This document shows, piece by piece, positions 39,478 through 46,597 of a stretch of DNA of 64,000 nt (positions are counted from its first letter, which is position 1; the number at the start of each line of letters is the position of its first letter). Source of the stretch: Microcoleus sp. CAWBG506 (GTDB lineage: Bacteria > Cyanobacteriota > Cyanobacteriia > Cyanobacteriales > Microcoleaceae); contig JAHREW010000004.1 of assembly GCA_020883125.1 (NCBI GenBank), forward strand, positions 136,496 through 200,495. Reading direction: 5' to 3'. The notes under the pieces are model-generated. The model did not search any database. It saw only the letters and a list, made by a program, of their open reading frames with translations, and was not told where the DNA came from. A program made the position numbers and the translations under genes.

Positions 39478-40839
39478 TTAGTGTGATCGTCGAGTTTTGA
39501 TATACTGCTTCAGTACAGGTGACAGAGTGTAAAGACTTTCCTGTTTTTCGATCAAGCAGCGGCGCGATAGAGATTGCAAGGCGTTGAGCAAATCTGATGA
39601 TGATATTTGTGCATTTTGGAGCAATTTGGCGAAGTTGACTGGCTGGTTTTCTGTCGCCAGCAATGACAGGACTTGTTTTTCTAGTTCGGAAGTGCGATCG
39701 AACTGCTCATGTAAAACATCTTTCAAATCTTCTGGTAACAATATGGTATCATCTATTAATAAGTCAGTCGCGCCGATTCCCAACTCTTGCATCAAAGTCG
39801 CCACGCTTTTTAACCATAACGGATTGCCTTGGTAGCGGTGAATGAGTGCTTCGCAGTTGTCGAGTTCTGCTAATCCTTTATCTCTGAGAACTTCCCGTGC
39901 GGCTGCGGTGTCTAAACCAGTGAGTTGTAAGGTACGAATGGGAGTATTTTGGCTGGTGAGTTGAGGAACTTCTTTGGGCGGTTCCCAACCGATTAGCAGG
40001 AAGCAACTTTGATGGGATATTTTTTCTATTTTTTTGAATAAAGAGCGATATTCTTCGTATTCTGGCTGATATTTTCCTGCTAATTCGCCGCTGCTGAACA
40101 GGTTGTGTATGTCATCTAAGATTACTAAGCAGCGATATTTTTGTAAATATTTAATTAGGGGTAATGCTTTCTGGTTGGTTGTGGGTGATTCTTGCTTTTC
40201 TGACTGGGAGAAAAACTGGATTAAGTGGGCTTCAAATTCAGGGAGGGTGGGGGATGTGTCGAAGTTGCACCAAATGACGTATTCAAACTCGTCTTTGATT
40301 TGTTGGACGAGTTGCACTGCTAAGGTTGTTTTGCCGATACCGAGTCCGCCGGTGATGGTTATGAGGCTGCTGTTTTGTTGTAGAATCGAGGTTGTGAGGG
40401 TTTTGAGTTGTGGGGTGCGATCGAAGAAAGCCCCTAATTCTGGCATCTCGCTTAAGTCGTGATGGGATGTTTCTTGATTTGGTGGGTTTGAGTTTGGTAT
40501 GTTTGGCGGGTGTTTGGTTTCTCCACAATAATTAACTAAGCCTATTTGTGCAGAGTCTTGTGCATAATGTGAAACTATCGAGACTTGGAATCTTTGCATT
40601 GCCGATCGTAAATTTGATTTACTGACATCTTCTCCTAACTGTTCTGAAAGCATTTTCCATAGTTCCGAGCCTACTTTTCTCACACTACTTTCAGAACAGT
40701 CAAAGTCTTTGGCTATGTGCTTGTATGTCTCACGTTCTACGGTGCCTTTTAGTACCGCTTCCTGTAAGTCGTCGAGGTGCTGACCCGTTTTCTCGAAGAC
40801 TATGCGATCGGCGAGTTTTAAGGCTTCTTTTAGGTTCAT
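39478..40839 (-). CDS. STAND ATPase: VMAP-type HTH plus NB-ARC
   Basis: A 453-residue protein. The N-terminal ~85 residues form the HTH domain found on cyanobacterial VMAP/STAND proteins (LKEALKLADRIVFEKTGQHLDDLQ, YKHIAKDFDCSESSVRKVGSELWKML). The NB-ARC ATPase has Walker A GGLGIGKTTLA, Walker B CLVILDDI, GxP-like GNPLWL and a winged helix. No C-terminal repeat sensor follows, so it is a minimal form. These proteins often act as signalling or defence switches; the role here is unknown. Paralogue of the protein at 58012-59535. Confidence 0.85.
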   Translation of the reverse strand: MNLKEALKLADRIVFEKTGQHLDDLQEAVLKGTVERETYKHIAKDFDCSESSVRKVGSELWKMLSEQLGEDVSKSNLRSAMQRFQVSIVSHYAQDSAQIGLVNYCGETKHPPNIPNSNPPNQETSHHDLSEMPELGAFFDRTPQLKTLTTSILQQNSSLITITGGLGIGKTTLAVQLVQQIKDEFEYVIWCNFDTSPTLPEFEAHLIQFFSQSEKQESPTTNQKALPLIKYLQKYRCLVILDDIHNLFSSGELAGKYQPEYEEYRSLFKKIEKISHQSCFLLIGWEPPKEVPQLTSQNTPIRTLQLTGLDTAAAREVLRDKGLAELDNCEALIHRYQGNPLWLKSVATLMQELGIGATDLLIDDTILLPEDLKDVLHEQFDRTSELEKQVLSLLATENQPVNFAKLLQNAQISSSDLLNALQSLSRRCLIEKQESLYTLSPVLKQYIKTRRSH

Positions 40840-41066: not shown

Positions 41067-41110
41067 GTAACAGTGTGTTAGATATCTGTTACAGTCTAAC
41101 ACACTGTTAC
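41067..41110. promoter_or_regulatory. Perfect 16-bp stem-loop before the peptide genes
   Basis: GTAACAGTGTGTTAGA (41067-41082) pairs without mismatch with 41095-41110 around a 12-base loop that itself repeats CTGTTACAG. It lies 67 bases before the first peptide start, and no T-tract follows. It may be an operator or a leader structure. Confidence 0.75.
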
Positions 41111-41177
41111 CATGCTCCAGTTGCTGCTGTTGCGACGCTTGTACATTGTCTACTTTGAACTTAAGGAGTCCTGAACA

Positions 41178-41318
41178 ATGAAAAATGAGATCAAGACTTG
41201 CAGCAAGGGAAAAAAGAATGTCAACGTAATGCAAATCTCGGTTGAGAATTACCCCAGTATGCAACCGAAGTTTACAAAGTTGAATTGGAGTAGCGGGGAG
41301 GGTGATGATAATGCCTAA
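41178..41318 (+). CDS. Short peptide A, putative RiPP precursor
   Basis: A 46-residue peptide with a Lys-rich N terminus and the segment YPSMQPKFTKLNWSSGE near residues 25-41. AAGGAG lies nine bases before the ATG. The second peptide, 42 bases downstream, has the same length and shares Y-P-x3-P-K-F-T-K-x2-W-x-S-G-E, so both are under selection as peptides. A single Cys is at position 8. There is no signal peptide. The tail is acidic. Proximity to a JmjC oxygenase suggests post-translational modification; whether the C-terminal part is a cleaved core is unknown. Confidence 0.72.
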   Translation: MKNEIKTCSKGKKNVNVMQISVENYPSMQPKFTKLNWSSGEGDDNA

Positions 41319-41360
41319 TCTAGTGTGAGGTCGGATTAATCAATTTTATGAGGTGTTTGC

Positions 41361-41501
41361 ATGAAATCCAAGTCGAAACAAGAGAATAAGGTTCTGTCGG
41401 TCGTGATTGGAGTTAAACCTTACCCAGTCGCCCGTCCAAAATTTACAAAGCAAACTTGGGAAAGCGGTGAGAATGGAGGAGAGGGGGCAGAATCAGGTTA
41501 G
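41361..41501 (+). CDS. Short peptide B, putative RiPP precursor
   Basis: A 46-residue peptide, again Lys-rich at the N terminus, with YPVARPKFTKQTWESGE near residues 21-37 and a Gly/Glu tail. GAGGTG lies about five bases before the ATG. Outside the shared motif it differs from peptide A almost everywhere, as seen in leader/core families or small paralogous substrates. It contains no Cys. It precedes the JmjC gene by 109 bases and is probably in the same transcript. Confidence 0.72.
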   Translation: MKSKSKQENKVLSVVIGVKPYPVARPKFTKQTWESGENGGEGAESG

Positions 41502-41610
41502 TGGGTTTAACAGCATCTAACGGATATATCAATTCAGCCAAGTTAGGAAATTATTACTTCAAGCTTGGTTGAATTTACATTTTTTATCAATTTGCCCAAA
41601 ATCTATTTCG

Positions 41611-42795
41611 ATGTATAATATGGCAACAACTTTATCAAAAATTTTGGCACCAATTACTCTAAAAGAGTTCAGAGAACTTTATTACACAAAGCGTTCTATT
41701 TTAATTAGAAGCGAGGGAAAAAAGTTTGATTGGTTGTTTGGATGGTCTTCCTTAAACCAAATAATGAATAAGTCTTTCTTTCCTCTTCCTACGATGAAAC
41801 TTGTTTTAGACGGAAAACCCATTAACGATCTATCTGAGCAGTCGAAGATTATTGATTGGTGTCGGAAAGGTGCTACAGTCATCATCGACCAACTACAGAA
41901 CTATGACTCACAAGTTAGAAGAGCAGTTGATTCGCTATCCAAGGAAATTGGGGAGCCTGTTAATGCTAACCTCTACTTCTCTCAACCAGAGCGGCAAGCA
42001 TTCAATGTACACTACGATCATCATGATGTGATTATTCTTCAAATTGAAGGTCACAAAAGGTGGAAAGTCTATGAAGACTCAGAAGATACAAAGTTCCCAC
42101 TATTTGTACAAAAGAGTCATAGCTCTGACATTCCTGATTCTCCTGTCCTAGATTGTCTCTTATCTTCAGGAGATGTTCTATACATTCCAAGAGGTCATTG
42201 GCACGCTGCAACTGCAAAGGATGATCAGTCGCTGCATCTGACTATCGGTATAGATGCAAGAACAGGGATTGATTTTGCAACGTGGTTGACCAATGAATTG
42301 CGTGATGATGTCTCTTTTAGGCAATCTTTTCCTCTAGTTTTTAGCCACGAAATTCATGAGAAACAATACTATCACGAGCTTCACTTACAACATTTTAATG
42401 GCTTAAAACAAAAGCTTATTCACAAATTAAATGACAATCAACTCTTTGATCATTATACAAGGTACTGTGTAAGCAAATCGCAAGTATTTGAACCATTCTA
42501 TTTACCTTACTCTACTGACAAAAACAGAATTAACTTTCCTAATACTTCTTCATTTGTACGATATAATAATCAGCAGTTTTTGCTAAATTTAGATGACGAT
42601 AAGCTCATGATAAATCTGATAATTTATGGAAAAATCCATCGTTTTAGTAGTAAGGCGGAACGTCTTCTTGAATTTATATTTAGCCACAATGAATTCAGCC
42701 TTCAAGACTCTCTTCAAGTGTCTGATATTTCTGAAGATGATGTTGCTGCTATATTGGAACATCTGCTAAGTGAAGCATTGATAAAATTTGCTTGA
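41611..42795 (+). CDS. JmjC (cupin_4, ROX-like) Fe(II)/2OG oxygenase
   Basis: A 394-residue protein with the JmjC metal triad H134-x-D136 (NVHYDHHDVIILQIEGHKRWKVY) and a distal His in YIPRGHWHAAT (H196 or H198). It has a middle helical linker and a C-terminal winged-helix-like tail, the architecture of bacterial ribosomal oxygenases such as YcfD. Those enzymes hydroxylate Arg or His in proteins. The gene follows two short peptides, so these are candidate substrates (inference). The start is ATG 41611 or 41620; no clear Shine-Dalgarno site. The gene lacks HIP1 octamers by eye, unlike its surroundings. Confidence 0.85.
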   Translation: MYNMATTLSKILAPITLKEFRELYYTKRSILIRSEGKKFDWLFGWSSLNQIMNKSFFPLPTMKLVLDGKPINDLSEQSKIIDWCRKGATVIIDQLQNYDSQVRRAVDSLSKEIGEPVNANLYFSQPERQAFNVHYDHHDVIILQIEGHKRWKVYEDSEDTKFPLFVQKSHSSDIPDSPVLDCLLSSGDVLYIPRGHWHAATAKDDQSLHLTIGIDARTGIDFATWLTNELRDDVSFRQSFPLVFSHEIHEKQYYHELHLQHFNGLKQKLIHKLNDNQLFDHYTRYCVSKSQVFEPFYLPYSTDKNRINFPNTSSFVRYNNQQFLLNLDDDKLMINLIIYGKIHRFSSKAERLLEFIFSHNEFSLQDSLQVSDISEDDVAAILEHLLSEALIKFA

Positions 42796-42853
42796 AGGCA
42801 TTATGTGAATTTTTCTCACTAACATTATCTTGAGCTACTCTGATGAGGTAAGT

Positions 42854-43804
42854 ATGGTAACATCAAACAAGTTTTTTTGCTCGGCTCAATCTTTACTTCT
42901 TAACGAGGAACTTATTGGTACAGCACTTTTAACAGAAGTGTATATTTTGATTGAATGTAAAAAACCCTGGGCTAACGAAGCATTTGAATCGAAAAAAATT
43001 CCTCACAAGTTACGCTTAATGGTTAAACAATATCGTGAATCTGCACGTTTTCTTTTAATTCAAAACAACAATACTAAGCATATAGATCATATTCAAGTTT
43101 TGTTTTATTTGCGCTCCAGTAATTATATTTTCTCCAAGGGATTTACTTTATATAAAGCAGAATGTTCAGATTACGATCGGGTATGTGATACCATTGAAGA
43201 TTACTTCATTAATCAGAAACTTCCATCACAAGACAACTCTGAAAATAATCGTAACATCCTGATTTGTACTCATGGAGGATTTGATCAATGCTGTGGCAAG
43301 TACGGAACATCATTCTACATAAAATCTAACGATATACTAGACTCGAACAATATTCATGAAAAAGTTGAAGTATGGGAGTCGAGTCACTTTGGAGGGCATC
43401 GTTTTGCACCAACCATGATTGATTTTCCAGATGGTAGATACTATGGAAGAATGAACGAAGATGTTTTTACTGCAATCATTAGCCGAACCGGAGACTTAAA
43501 CACAACTGTATCCTCTTATAGAGGATGGGCAATACTGCCTAAAGTAGCACAATTAGTAGAGAAGCAACTGTTGCTCGATTTTGGTTGGCAGTGGTTTAAC
43601 GCCTCTGCTGCTAGTTACGTAAAACTATTAGAAGATGGTGTGTCCTACGACGTTACAATCAGATACTTACTGGGGCATGATGAGGAGAGAGTGTACTCTG
43701 CTAGAGTATCAAAAAAACATTCTCAATCTTTGAGCATGAGAATTCGCTGCCAAAATCCAGTAGAGACCGTAGTTCCTCAATTTTCCGTTGATAGCCTTGA
43801 TTAA
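42854..43804 (+). CDS. Sucrase/ferredoxin-like (Apd1-type) [2Fe-2S] protein
   Basis: A 316-residue member of the Suc_Fer-like thioredoxin-fold ferredoxin family. The motif CTHGGFDQCCGKYG gives C138 and C147, nine apart; HFGGHRF gives H178 and H182, four apart. This spacing matches the bis-His [2Fe-2S] site known in yeast Apd1. A first half with a conserved EELIGTA segment matches the family. GAGGT precedes the ATG at 42854. It lies 58 bases after the JmjC gene, and a redox role in the cassette is inferred. Confidence 0.85.
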   Translation: MVTSNKFFCSAQSLLLNEELIGTALLTEVYILIECKKPWANEAFESKKIPHKLRLMVKQYRESARFLLIQNNNTKHIDHIQVLFYLRSSNYIFSKGFTLYKAECSDYDRVCDTIEDYFINQKLPSQDNSENNRNILICTHGGFDQCCGKYGTSFYIKSNDILDSNNIHEKVEVWESSHFGGHRFAPTMIDFPDGRYYGRMNEDVFTAIISRTGDLNTTVSSYRGWAILPKVAQLVEKQLLLDFGWQWFNASAASYVKLLEDGVSYDVTIRYLLGHDEERVYSARVSKKHSQSLSMRIRCQNPVETVVPQFSVDSLD

Positions 43805-45132: not shown

Positions 45133-45534
45133 TCACGAATTTGCTGCCCAAAGAATAGTAATATCGCTGTATTGCTTGAACATTGAATCAGCACTCACAA
45201 GCGTCATCTCCTCGATCTGAGCCTGGGCAATTAGCATTCGATCAAAGGGATCTCGATGATGTAATGGTAACGCAGCCGCCCGCAGGGCATGAGGTGCTGT
45301 AATTTCCAACGATCGCACATCTAACTGTATCATACGGCTAGAAATGTAGGTATCTATCGGTTCTGGCAGTGGCAACTTTCCGAGCGCAACTTTGATACCC
45401 ATTTCCCAGATACTAGCAACAGAAAACCACAATTCGTTCGTTTCATCGGCAATCTGTGCGATCGCCTCCTCATTCAATCGCTCTGGTTGGGCAAACCACC
45501 ACAAAAAGCACTGCGTATCCAGCAATAGTTTCAC
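45133..45534 (-). CDS. PIN-domain toxin (VapC-type)
   Basis: A 133-residue PIN RNase-like toxin. Acidic residues of the family are visible: LLLDTQCFLWW (Asp6), SIWEMGIK (Glu) and HHRDPFDRMLIAQA (two Asp). It overlaps its antitoxin gene by four bases. Such toxins cleave tRNA or rRNA; the target here is unknown. Confidence 0.9.
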   Translation of the reverse strand: MKLLLDTQCFLWWFAQPERLNEEAIAQIADETNELWFSVASIWEMGIKVALGKLPLPEPIDTYISSRMIQLDVRSLEITAPHALRAAALPLHHRDPFDRMLIAQAQIEEMTLVSADSMFKQYSDITILWAANS

Positions 45535-45776
45535 TTTTCATCCCCCTCGAATGCGGTCAAAATATCTTTTGGCAAAGGATCGTTAAAGTCCTCTGGCAAA
45601 ACAAATCTCCCTCGATCTTGCCCTAAACTAGCTCGTCGATTAGATGAAGTACGAAACGGCACCAACTTCGCGATTGGGATGTCTCCGTTTGCAATAATGA
45701 TTTCTTCTCCCAATTCTACACGCAACAGTAGTAGTGAGAGATTTGTTTTAGCTTGATGGATATTTACAGTTTCCAT
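45531..45776 (-). CDS. Phd/YefM-type antitoxin
   Basis: An 81-residue protein with the N-terminal DNA-binding part METVNIHQAKTNLSLLLLRVELGEEIIIANGDIPIAKLVPF typical of Phd/YefM antitoxins and a C-terminal toxin-binding tail. It is upstream of and overlaps the PIN gene (ATGA-type coupling). Confidence 0.9.
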   Translation of the reverse strand: METVNIHQAKTNLSLLLLRVELGEEIIIANGDIPIAKLVPFRTSSNRRASLGQDRGRFVLPEDFNDPLPKDILTAFEGDEK

Positions 45777-45817
45777 GCTCTTAAAAAATTAAGTCTATAA
45801 GTTAAGTTTAGTTCGAT

Positions 45818-45883
45818 GGTGAGAGTTCTGCAAGATCGAGTTTATGAATGCTCTACAAATACCACCCGGCGCATACTCTCACC
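45818..45883. promoter_or_regulatory. Inverted GGTGAGAGT / ACTCTCACC pair between two TA operons
   Basis: A perfect 9-bp inverted repeat, 45818-45826 and 45875-45883, with a 48-base spacer in the divergent promoter region of the two TA modules. It might be an operator for one of the antitoxins. A TATAAT at about 45948 would serve the plus-strand module. Confidence 0.45.
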
Positions 45884-45993
45884 AAAATTAATAGCGATCG
45901 CCTTAGTTCGATCGCCCGTCACAGCAAATACCTTCTGACTGCAATTACAGTATAATGAGTAAACATGATCAGCGTAAAAATTGCACAAAAATC

Positions 45994-46215
45994 ATGACTA
46001 TCGATCTAGAGATTTTTCAAACAGTCGTCAAGATGCCAGAATCTCTCAAACAAGAGATATTGCATTATGCAAAATATTTACTTGAGAAACACGCAAAAAC
46101 TGAATCATCTCCAGAACAACTTGAACAACCTCATGGTTATGGTAGCTGGGCCGGTCAAATCGTTATGTCTGATGATTTCGATGAACCGCTGGAAGATTTA
46201 AAGGAATATATGTAA
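45994..46215 (+). CDS. DUF2281-type antitoxin
   Basis: A 73-residue protein, MTIDLEIFQTVVKMPESLKQEILHYAKYLLEKH then WAGQIVMSDDFDEPLEDLKEYM, of the DUF2281/VapB-like group. The ATG at 45994 is chosen; an earlier frame start at 45955 adds a basic stretch without support. One base separates its stop from the PIN gene. Confidence 0.88.
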   Translation: MTIDLEIFQTVVKMPESLKQEILHYAKYLLEKHAKTESSPEQLEQPHGYGSWAGQIVMSDDFDEPLEDLKEYM

Positions 46216-46216
46216 C

Positions 46217-46597
46217 ATGGAATTTCTTTTAGATACTCATGCCTTTCTGTGGTACTTGCTTGGCGATTCCAATCTCGGTAGTAAAGCAAAAGAAGCGATC
46301 GATACTAAAACAGGTTTGTATTTTAGTATTGCCAGCCTGTGGGAAATATCCATTAAAATTAATGTTGGTAAGCTGCAACTGAATCGGTCATTTGAATATC
46401 TGCCACAAGAATTGGAATACATTAACGCTCAAATTTTACCAATTACGTTTAAAGACACTGAGATTTATGCAAGTCTTCCTCTGCATCACCGAGATCCGTT
46501 CGATCGCATTTTGGTAGCACAGACGATGAATAATTCGCTGGTTTTGATTAGTCGTGATGAGGCTTTTGATGCTTATCCAATTCAGCGGGTGTGGTGA
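46217..46597 (+). CDS. PIN-domain toxin (VapC-type), second module
   Basis: A 126-residue PIN protein (LLDTHAFLWYLLGD, SIASLWEISIKINVGKL, LHHRDPFDRILVAQ) paralogous to the toxin at 45133 but with a different class of antitoxin. Translated together with its antitoxin. Confidence 0.9.
   Translation: MEFLLDTHAFLWYLLGDSNLGSKAKEAIDTKTGLYFSIASLWEISIKINVGKLQLNRSFEYLPQELEYINAQILPITFKDTEIYASLPLHHRDPFDRILVAQTMNNSLVLISRDEAFDAYPIQRVW

Follow-up and report, generated by a model that had tools for sequence, protein, structure and literature searches.

JmjC-type (cupin_4) oxygenases are known from two settings that resemble the locus described here; the papers cited are represented by excerpts. NO66 (RIOX1) and MINA53 (RIOX2) are ribosomal histidyl hydroxylases (PMC4556315, PMC9994133). 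JmjC/cupin hydroxylases also act in the pathways of biphenomycins, which are ribosomally synthesised and post-translationally modified peptides (RiPPs); the JmjC-related BipG and PbsQ hydroxylate a side chain of the ribosomal precursor, as ornithine hydroxylases (PMC12707348, PMC12257519). RiPP leaders bind RiPP recognition elements (RREs) as a β-strand on strand 3 (PMC12710340). The same paper notes fusions of an RRE-like fold to the PF08007 JmjC domain in fish and algae, and mentions bacterial homologues in RiPP-like settings. The locus compared with these systems lies in a 64,000-nt stretch (the window) of contig JAHREW010000004.1 of the cyanobacterium Microcoleus sp. CAWBG506. It comprises genes for two small peptides (P1 and P2), a JmjC_2 oxygenase and a Suc_Fer (Apd1-type) ferredoxin, and is probably a RiPP-type pathway in which an RRE–JmjC fusion hydroxylates the peptide cores. 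The features of the block, in window coordinates, are as follows.

41067..41110 (arms 41067-41082 and 41095-41110), no strand: candidate operator or hairpin, a perfect 16-bp inverted repeat with a 12-nt loop, 67 bp before P1
41178..41318, + strand: P1, PKFTK-type peptide of 46 aa, based on the open reading frame (ORF), Nostoc counterpart, motif and ratio of non-synonymous to synonymous substitution (dN/dS)
41361..41501, + strand: P2, 46-aa paralogue of P1, based on the same four kinds of evidence
41620..42795, + strand: JmjC_2 oxygenase, NO66/MINA53-like, based on Pfam, an alignment of 45 sequences and a structure model
42523..42795, + strand: RRE-like winged helix, the C-terminal domain of the JmjC protein, based on the predicted fold
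42854..43804, + strand: Suc_Fer/Apd1-type thioredoxin-like ferredoxin, based on Pfam and an alignment of 23 sequences

Gene block and its Nostoc counterpart

P1, P2, JmjC and Suc_Fer form one operon-like unit. The original prediction of two 46-codon peptide genes with ribosome-binding sites and one common motif was borne out: both lie on the + strand, preceded by the Shine–Dalgarno-like AAGGAG and GAGGT, and both products contain PKFTK-x2-W-x-SGE. The peptides are 42% identical over 39 residues, and one 36-nt stretch of their genes is 72% identical. The downstream order it gave, a cupin_4 JmjC gene and then a Suc_Fer gene on the same strand, also holds, the products matching PF08007 (JmjC_2; E 5.9e-28) and PF06999 (E 1.4e-28) in Pfam. 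With the starts set by homologues (ATG 41620 for JmjC, ATG 42854 for Suc_Fer), the gap between P2 and JmjC is 118 bp, or 109 bp if the alternative ATG 41611 is used.

A plasmid search with the JmjC protein found a copy 68.5% identical on plasmid p057_I of Nostoc sp. C057. The gene order there is the same (both peptides, JmjC and ‘sucrase ferredoxin’), the second peptide being unannotated. The C-terminal half of P2 is nearly identical in Nostoc; in P1, the C-terminal part is conserved and the N-terminal part, containing a strand-like QISVE stretch, is variable. Nei–Gojobori estimates of dN/dS between window and Nostoc are 0.28/1.57 for P1, 0.18/0.91 for P2, 0.18/1.33 for JmjC and 0.24/0.86 for Suc_Fer, each derived from two sequences and with high dS, and the intergenic stretches are 50–60% identical. 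To judge from these values, P1 and P2 appear to be under purifying selection (dN/dS about 0.2), with a constraint similar to that of the enzymes. Because the gene order is kept on the Nostoc plasmid and the dN/dS of the peptides is enzyme-like, the four-gene block is more than a chance arrangement. It also shows the short conserved precursor gene beside a modifying enzyme that is typical of RiPP clusters.

JmjC oxygenase, RRE-like domain and ferredoxin

The JmjC protein, modelled from 45 sequences with a mean predicted local distance difference test score (pLDDT) of 90.7, aligns along its full length with NO66 (Z 30.7, 386 residues aligned, root-mean-square deviation 6.9), followed by MINA53 (Z 27.9), B. 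subtilis YxbC (20.8) and YcfD (20.4). The metal ligands H131, D133 and H195, as well as K146, are invariant in the alignment of 45 JmjC sequences, and the HxD motif, the Lys and the distal His align with the NO66 positions. The protein has the HxD...H site and the fold of the NO66/MINA53/ROX group of JmjC hydroxylases, and the model points to an oxygenase of the NO66/MINA53 type with an intact Fe/2-oxoglutarate site. With the JmjC profile, eukaryotic NO66 and MINA53 score E about 1e-37 and 1e-32, far above the bacterial YcfD (about 1e-10), a clue to where the eukaryotic ribosomal oxygenases may have come from.

A quick JmjC tree without bootstrap places the window and Nostoc proteins outside a largely cyanobacterial clade of 42 rows (Shimodaira–Hasegawa-like approximate likelihood ratio test, 98) and groups them weakly (81) with a Flavobacteriaceae protein and one from a Streptomyces clavuligerus plasmid, each on a long branch. 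A foreign origin of the window JmjC gene is possible on this placement.

The last 90 residues, folded on their own (pLDDT 91.2), are predicted to form several strands followed by three helices, an order that follows that of RREs, with extra short strands. The top matches of this domain are MINA53 and NO66, followed by RRE-bearing RiPP proteins with Z of 6.7–7.9: the 4v1v heterocyclase, presumably LynD (7.9), TruD (7.5), MccB (7.5), ThcOx (7.4), McbBCD (7.3), TbiB1 with leader (7.3), the PbtF RRE (6.9) and PqqD (6.8). By fold, a candidate leader recognition element is present, and other winged helices score alike.

In the Suc_Fer protein, C138, C146, C147, H178 and H182 are invariant among 23 aligned sequences. 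The arrangement C138-X8-C147 ... H178-X3-H182 corresponds to the C-X8-C-Xn-H-X3-H cluster motif of Aim32 (PMC8482512), so the earlier assignment to Apd1-type [2Fe-2S] proteins fits. The yeast Apd1/Aim32 ferredoxins are not described as oxygenase partners in the excerpts of that paper (PMC8482512). A sequence search of the window protein against solved structures gave no credible match. In the Suc_Fer tree, the window and Nostoc copies stand outside the other 52 rows, the program warning of long branches; this placement is compatible with either one or two origins of the JmjC–Suc_Fer pairing. Suc_Fer genes occur in 167 of 388 genomes of the order, far more often than the JmjC–Suc_Fer pair, and Suc_Fer alone therefore marks nothing.

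The analysis shows the genes, their conservation and synteny, the predicted folds and the intact metal ligands; binding, hydroxylation, the target residue and the role of Suc_Fer are inferred. P1 and P2 would be precursor peptides with a strand-like segment (QISVE / VVIGV) in the N-terminal half and an acidic, Gly-rich tail. The hydrophobic β-strand segment would dock on the RRE-like domain at the C-terminus of JmjC, and the C-terminal core (PKFTK..W.SGE plus the tail) would thereby reach the Fe(II)/2-oxoglutarate site and be hydroxylated on one or more side chains. Suc_Fer would most likely supply electrons, keeping the iron ferrous or serving a further redox step. Host enzymes would have to carry out trimming and export, because neither function was recognised in the cassette.

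The window cassette differs from the biphenomycin clusters, which also contain a multinuclear non-haem iron-dependent oxidase (MNIO), an arginase, a B12-dependent radical S-adenosylmethionine enzyme (B12-rSAM), a TldD-type protease and FRF-type precursors (PMC12707348, PMC12257519, in excerpt); in this cassette, no modifying enzyme other than JmjC and Suc_Fer was recognised, and its precursors are different. The described RRE-like–JmjC fusions have the same domain pairing, whereas the excerpts of PMC12710340 describe neither a precursor family nor a Suc_Fer partner, a multi-core peptide or a cassette. The original prediction knew of no described system of this kind. This stands for the cassette, of which no description was found in searches of the open-licence PubMed Central (PMC) literature, nor any pairing of a sucrase ferredoxin with a RiPP; it does not stand for the components, since RiPP JmjC hydroxylases and RRE-like JmjC fusions are known from the papers excerpted above.

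Peptides at related JmjC loci

Of 386 genomes searched in the phylum, 24 contain JmjC relatives (E up to 1e-10). A Suc_Fer gene is adjacent in nine of the 24 (the own genome, L060-L066 and L073), and two others lie on short contigs (L075, L081). A contig scan gave 380 JmjC relatives among 405 candidate stretches, and the counts of pairs and peptides rest on the best 80. In 45 of these 80 loci, Suc_Fer follows within 2 kb downstream on the same strand. A hidden Markov model (HMM) of SKIQ-motif peptides, started from six peptides of six loci and refined by iteration, matched 69 ORFs, all on the same strand and upstream of JmjC, with several genomes fetched twice and so counted twice. JmjC–Suc_Fer pairs lacking motif peptides, which would have spoken against the original prediction, did not appear: in other cyanobacteria, all 44 pairs with more than 500 bp upstream have a matching peptide, L102 being left out because only 157 bp precede it. 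Many of the 44 are congeners, and the pairs are therefore not independent. None of 3,202 ORFs matched in 34 control loci obtained via Suc_Fer, whose flanks are mostly about 1.5 kb, normally too short to reach a peptide upstream of JmjC; four of the 34 hold a JmjC gene (L030, which is the own locus, as well as L041, L055 and L057).

The SKIQ peptides have the layout (R)(A/P/T)SKIQVEVK(E/D)I, a spacer and a DADGGD-type core such as LNVDADGSDVTNE; the SKIQVEVKEI motif is β-strand-like. Some contain two or three tandem nine-residue cores (NFDADGGDR ×3 in Okeania, NTDADGSDL ×2 in Brasilonema). The division into leader and core is clear in the peptides with tandem cores; P1 and P2 show the strand-like segment only. 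Candidate target residues would be the Asp/Asn common to most related cores; P1 and P2 also share Lys, Thr, Phe and Trp. Genes beyond the cassette vary between genera. Of 23 representative loci, 16 have a gene of one GNAT-like cluster downstream of Suc_Fer in the opposite orientation, and Pfam confirmed the three that were checked; examples beside the JmjC cassette are L127:7340-7771, L129:7115-7594, L101:7437-7868 and L142:6109-6564. There is none at the window or Nostoc copies.

Among the 35 JmjC loci without Suc_Fer, three have SKIQ-type peptides, two of them on contigs ending just after JmjC. At a further 24, reading by eye showed an ORF that combines a comparable strand motif (IEVEVVDL, LHVEIEDL and others) with an N/D/G/S-rich tail, mostly with an apparent signal peptide and NSNSNS or DQNQD repeats; judged by these sequences, such ORFs are possibly exported hydroxylated repeat peptides. 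Signal-peptide-like ORFs with the strand motif and long NSNSNS/DQNQD repeats are found upstream of most Suc_Fer-less JmjC genes (L151-L178). A regular expression (regex) for a strand motif plus polar tail, drawn up after the peptides had been seen and not matching P1 or P2, matched 57 of 79 sense regions upstream of JmjC (33/44 with Suc_Fer, 24/35 without) against 0/79 antisense regions, one of 140 segments of Suc_Fer-only loci and 0/264 far-downstream segments.

Some JmjC relatives adjoin peptide or RiPP genes. The relative at L072 (G030) stands beside YcaO, sulfotransferase and ThcOx genes, likely an azoline RiPP pathway. At L124 (Saprospiraceae), a C39-peptidase ATP-binding cassette (ABC) exporter and HlyD precede the JmjC relative, which is followed by a Lant_dehydr_C protein. 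Streptomyces plasmids (L027, L029, L198, L199) share a recurring set of a 43–49-aa peptide, JmjC, an aldo/keto reductase and one further protein, three of the four peptides ending in GGGTG(R/K)SDGND; actinobacterial plasmid L028 has the peptide and JmjC without the reductase, and L200 has JmjC and the reductase with no annotated peptide. On viral contigs, no relative was confirmed.

These loci bear on the explanation that the JmjC protein is a ribosomal-protein oxygenase of the NO66/MINA53/YcfD type, and that the small ORFs beside it are regulatory or have no connection with it. The full-length fold matches to NO66 and YcfD and the ribosomal substrates of NO66 and MINA53 speak for it. However, NO66 and MINA53 hydroxylate ribosomal-protein histidine, and the window enzyme adjoins peptide genes without a single histidine codon. 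The peptide genes are constrained about as strongly as the enzymes, a motif peptide is kept in every testable pair while the contexts vary between genera, JmjC relatives occur in RiPP clusters, and the patchy spread through the phylum ill suits a housekeeping ribosome enzyme. This explanation is accordingly very unlikely; a housekeeping ribosomal oxygenase beside chance ORFs was likewise judged unlikely, given the 44/44 pairs, the dN/dS values and the regex result (57/79 against 0/79).

Another explanation is metal handling: the Asp/Asn-rich peptides, once hydroxylated, would bind iron, which Suc_Fer would reduce or release. β-Hydroxyaspartate is a known iron ligand, and the cores DADGGD and GEGDDNA are acidic. 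In Bacteroidota, 90–99-aa lipoprotein-like peptides with D-rich tails precede JmjC (L185, L186, L188 and L195, by eye), and L186 and L195 have a TonB-dependent-receptor-like gene upstream (by eye). Some Suc_Fer matches on Deinococcus plasmids overlie genes for ABC substrate-binding proteins, one annotated as iron. Yet the residues conserved in P1 and P2 (PKFTK, W) are atypical metal ligands, and other precursors have NSNSNS repeats with few carboxylates; metal handling is an unlikely main role.

The window peptides are of a rarer, PKFTK type. P1 and P2 have no match in Pfam or NCBIfam at E 1; in an NCBIfam scan of nine peptides, six had no match at E 1 and the other three gave weak matches, mostly to low-complexity adhesins, far under the curated cut-offs. 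A P2 search matched one of 148 genomes, its own, and profile A3 (PKFTK-type) matched two of 386, the second at E 0.0098. A PKFTK HMM built from the four Microcoleus and Nostoc peptides and searched against 24,611 ORFs gave one further match that passed the E threshold (E 0.0013, the next 3.0), in a Flavobacteriaceae metagenome-assembled genome. This ORF lies directly upstream of a JmjC gene and contains PKFNRANQSS. In the class of this genome, its JmjC protein matched 11 of 395 genomes, and 11 further loci (L185-L195) had no PKFTK-type peptide by eye. A GNAT gene is also present at the Flavobacteriaceae JmjC locus. Within the own genome, no SKIQ-type peptide was found elsewhere (best E 0.9).

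Several observations weigh against a RiPP pathway in the window. The C-terminal fold is unspecific: proteins outside RiPP biosynthesis score equally, among them the non-ribosomal peptide synthetase oxidase BmdC (Z 8.0), YcfD (7.7), GdmN (7.0), PKMT1 (6.9) and the RNA polymerase III winged helix (6.7), and a Z under 8 can reflect a common arrangement. Since such winged helices score alike, the fold permits leader binding without proving it. P1 and P2 are more strongly conserved in the C-terminal than in the N-terminal part, and most RiPPs show the opposite pattern. The SKIQ HMM matched the four window and Nostoc peptides at E 0.02–0.13 in a four-sequence search, which is not significant, and hhalign aligned the SKIQ and PKFTK profiles at E 0.0028 but with a probability of 10.9%; direct homology of the window and SKIQ peptides is unsupported by these values. 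The cassette has no recognised protease or exporter. Among the 35 Suc_Fer-less loci, no motif peptide was recognised at eight (L106, L124, L128, L133, L167, L174, L175 and L179), and L106, L133 and L174 (Rhizonema/Scytonema) also have no Suc_Fer over 1.4–2.2 kb downstream; JmjC genes without either partner therefore exist.

Hydroxylation of P1 and P2 by the RRE–JmjC fusion nevertheless remains the probable reading. The original prediction that the peptides are JmjC substrates agrees with their conservation, the 44/44 pairs and the RRE-like fold, which argue for the substrate role indirectly. The cassette may well belong to a broad, apparently undescribed RiPP class in which an RRE–JmjC fusion acts on precursors of several types: cytosolic SKIQVEVKEI peptides that carry one to three DADGGD-type cores and are accompanied by Suc_Fer (often also GNAT), exported peptides with NS or DQ repeats, the PKFTK type of the window, and a version with aldo/keto reductase on Streptomyces plasmids. 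NO66 and MINA53 would then be relatives of such leader-guided hydroxylases. If so, hydroxylated ribosomal peptides in many cyanobacterial genera are the product of one leader-guided JmjC enzyme that itself carries the recognition domain. This would offer a compact system for studying the chemistry and role of such peptides, a way into why a [2Fe-2S] protein pairs with a 2-oxoglutarate oxygenase, and a test of shared ancestry between the winged helix of human NO66/MINA53 and peptide-recognition domains.

Flanks and possible mobility of the locus

The original prediction took the block for a mobile unit without HIP1 octamers, flanked by repeats and toxin–antitoxin genes. The guanine–cytosine content is 36.8% in the block and 45.2% in the window. 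None of the 54 HIP1 sites of the window falls within 41067-43804, where 2.3 are expected, or anywhere between 37549 and 43912; the predicted absence is real and not striking on its own. Window positions ~39,694 and ~46,836, 7.1 kb apart here, are separated by only 0.34 kb in the complete congener G099 and by 1.6 kb in congener G566; in congener G579, ~2 kb lie between the NB-ARC gene and the right flank, where the window has 5.9 kb. Because this spacing differs, the cassette lies within a strain-variable insertion. On the Nostoc plasmid, a tyrosine recombinase gene stands 2.9 kb before the cassette and transposase genes just after it. Mobility is supported to that extent; no integrase or terminal repeats were recognised in the window block, and no integrase was found among the Pfam-scanned ORFs of 39.5–46.6 kb, a part of the ORFs there.

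Of the predicted flanking repeats, the notable one is the perfect inverted repeat upstream. Its DNA fold has z = -5.9, and its 15-bp core occurs in the whole genome as just the two arms, with up to one mismatch allowed. Because there is no other copy, the repeat resembles an operator or hairpin more than a transposon end, and a role as transposon ends was rejected.

Together with a divergent upstream gene, this possible operator would fit peptide signalling, in which a divergently encoded TPR or NB-ARC protein senses the modified peptide as a pheromone. The upstream gene encodes an NB-ARC protein in the window, an NB-ARC–TPR protein on the Nostoc plasmid and an NsdA-type TPR regulator in Streptomyces L027, L029 and L198. 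Against this, no such regulator is conserved beside SKIQ-type cassettes, the window and Nostoc NB-ARC proteins are just 24% identical over the aligned region, and the upstream gene of L199 has no Pfam match. G579 and G354 also have the NB-ARC gene at this locus, and there is no cassette match among the matches listed for them; membership of this gene in the cassette is unsupported, and it is probably part of the locus instead. Signalling of this kind is quite unlikely. An anti-phage defence role was rejected, PADLOC giving no match at E 0.01 for JmjC or Suc_Fer and weak matches only for the NB-ARC proteins.

The window NB-ARC gene (39478-40839) belongs to a family with several copies in Microcoleus genomes. 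The predicted toxin–antitoxin flank holds only from 1.3 kb downstream of the block, where the PIN/Phd and DUF2281/PIN toxin–antitoxin-like pairs (45133-46597) begin.

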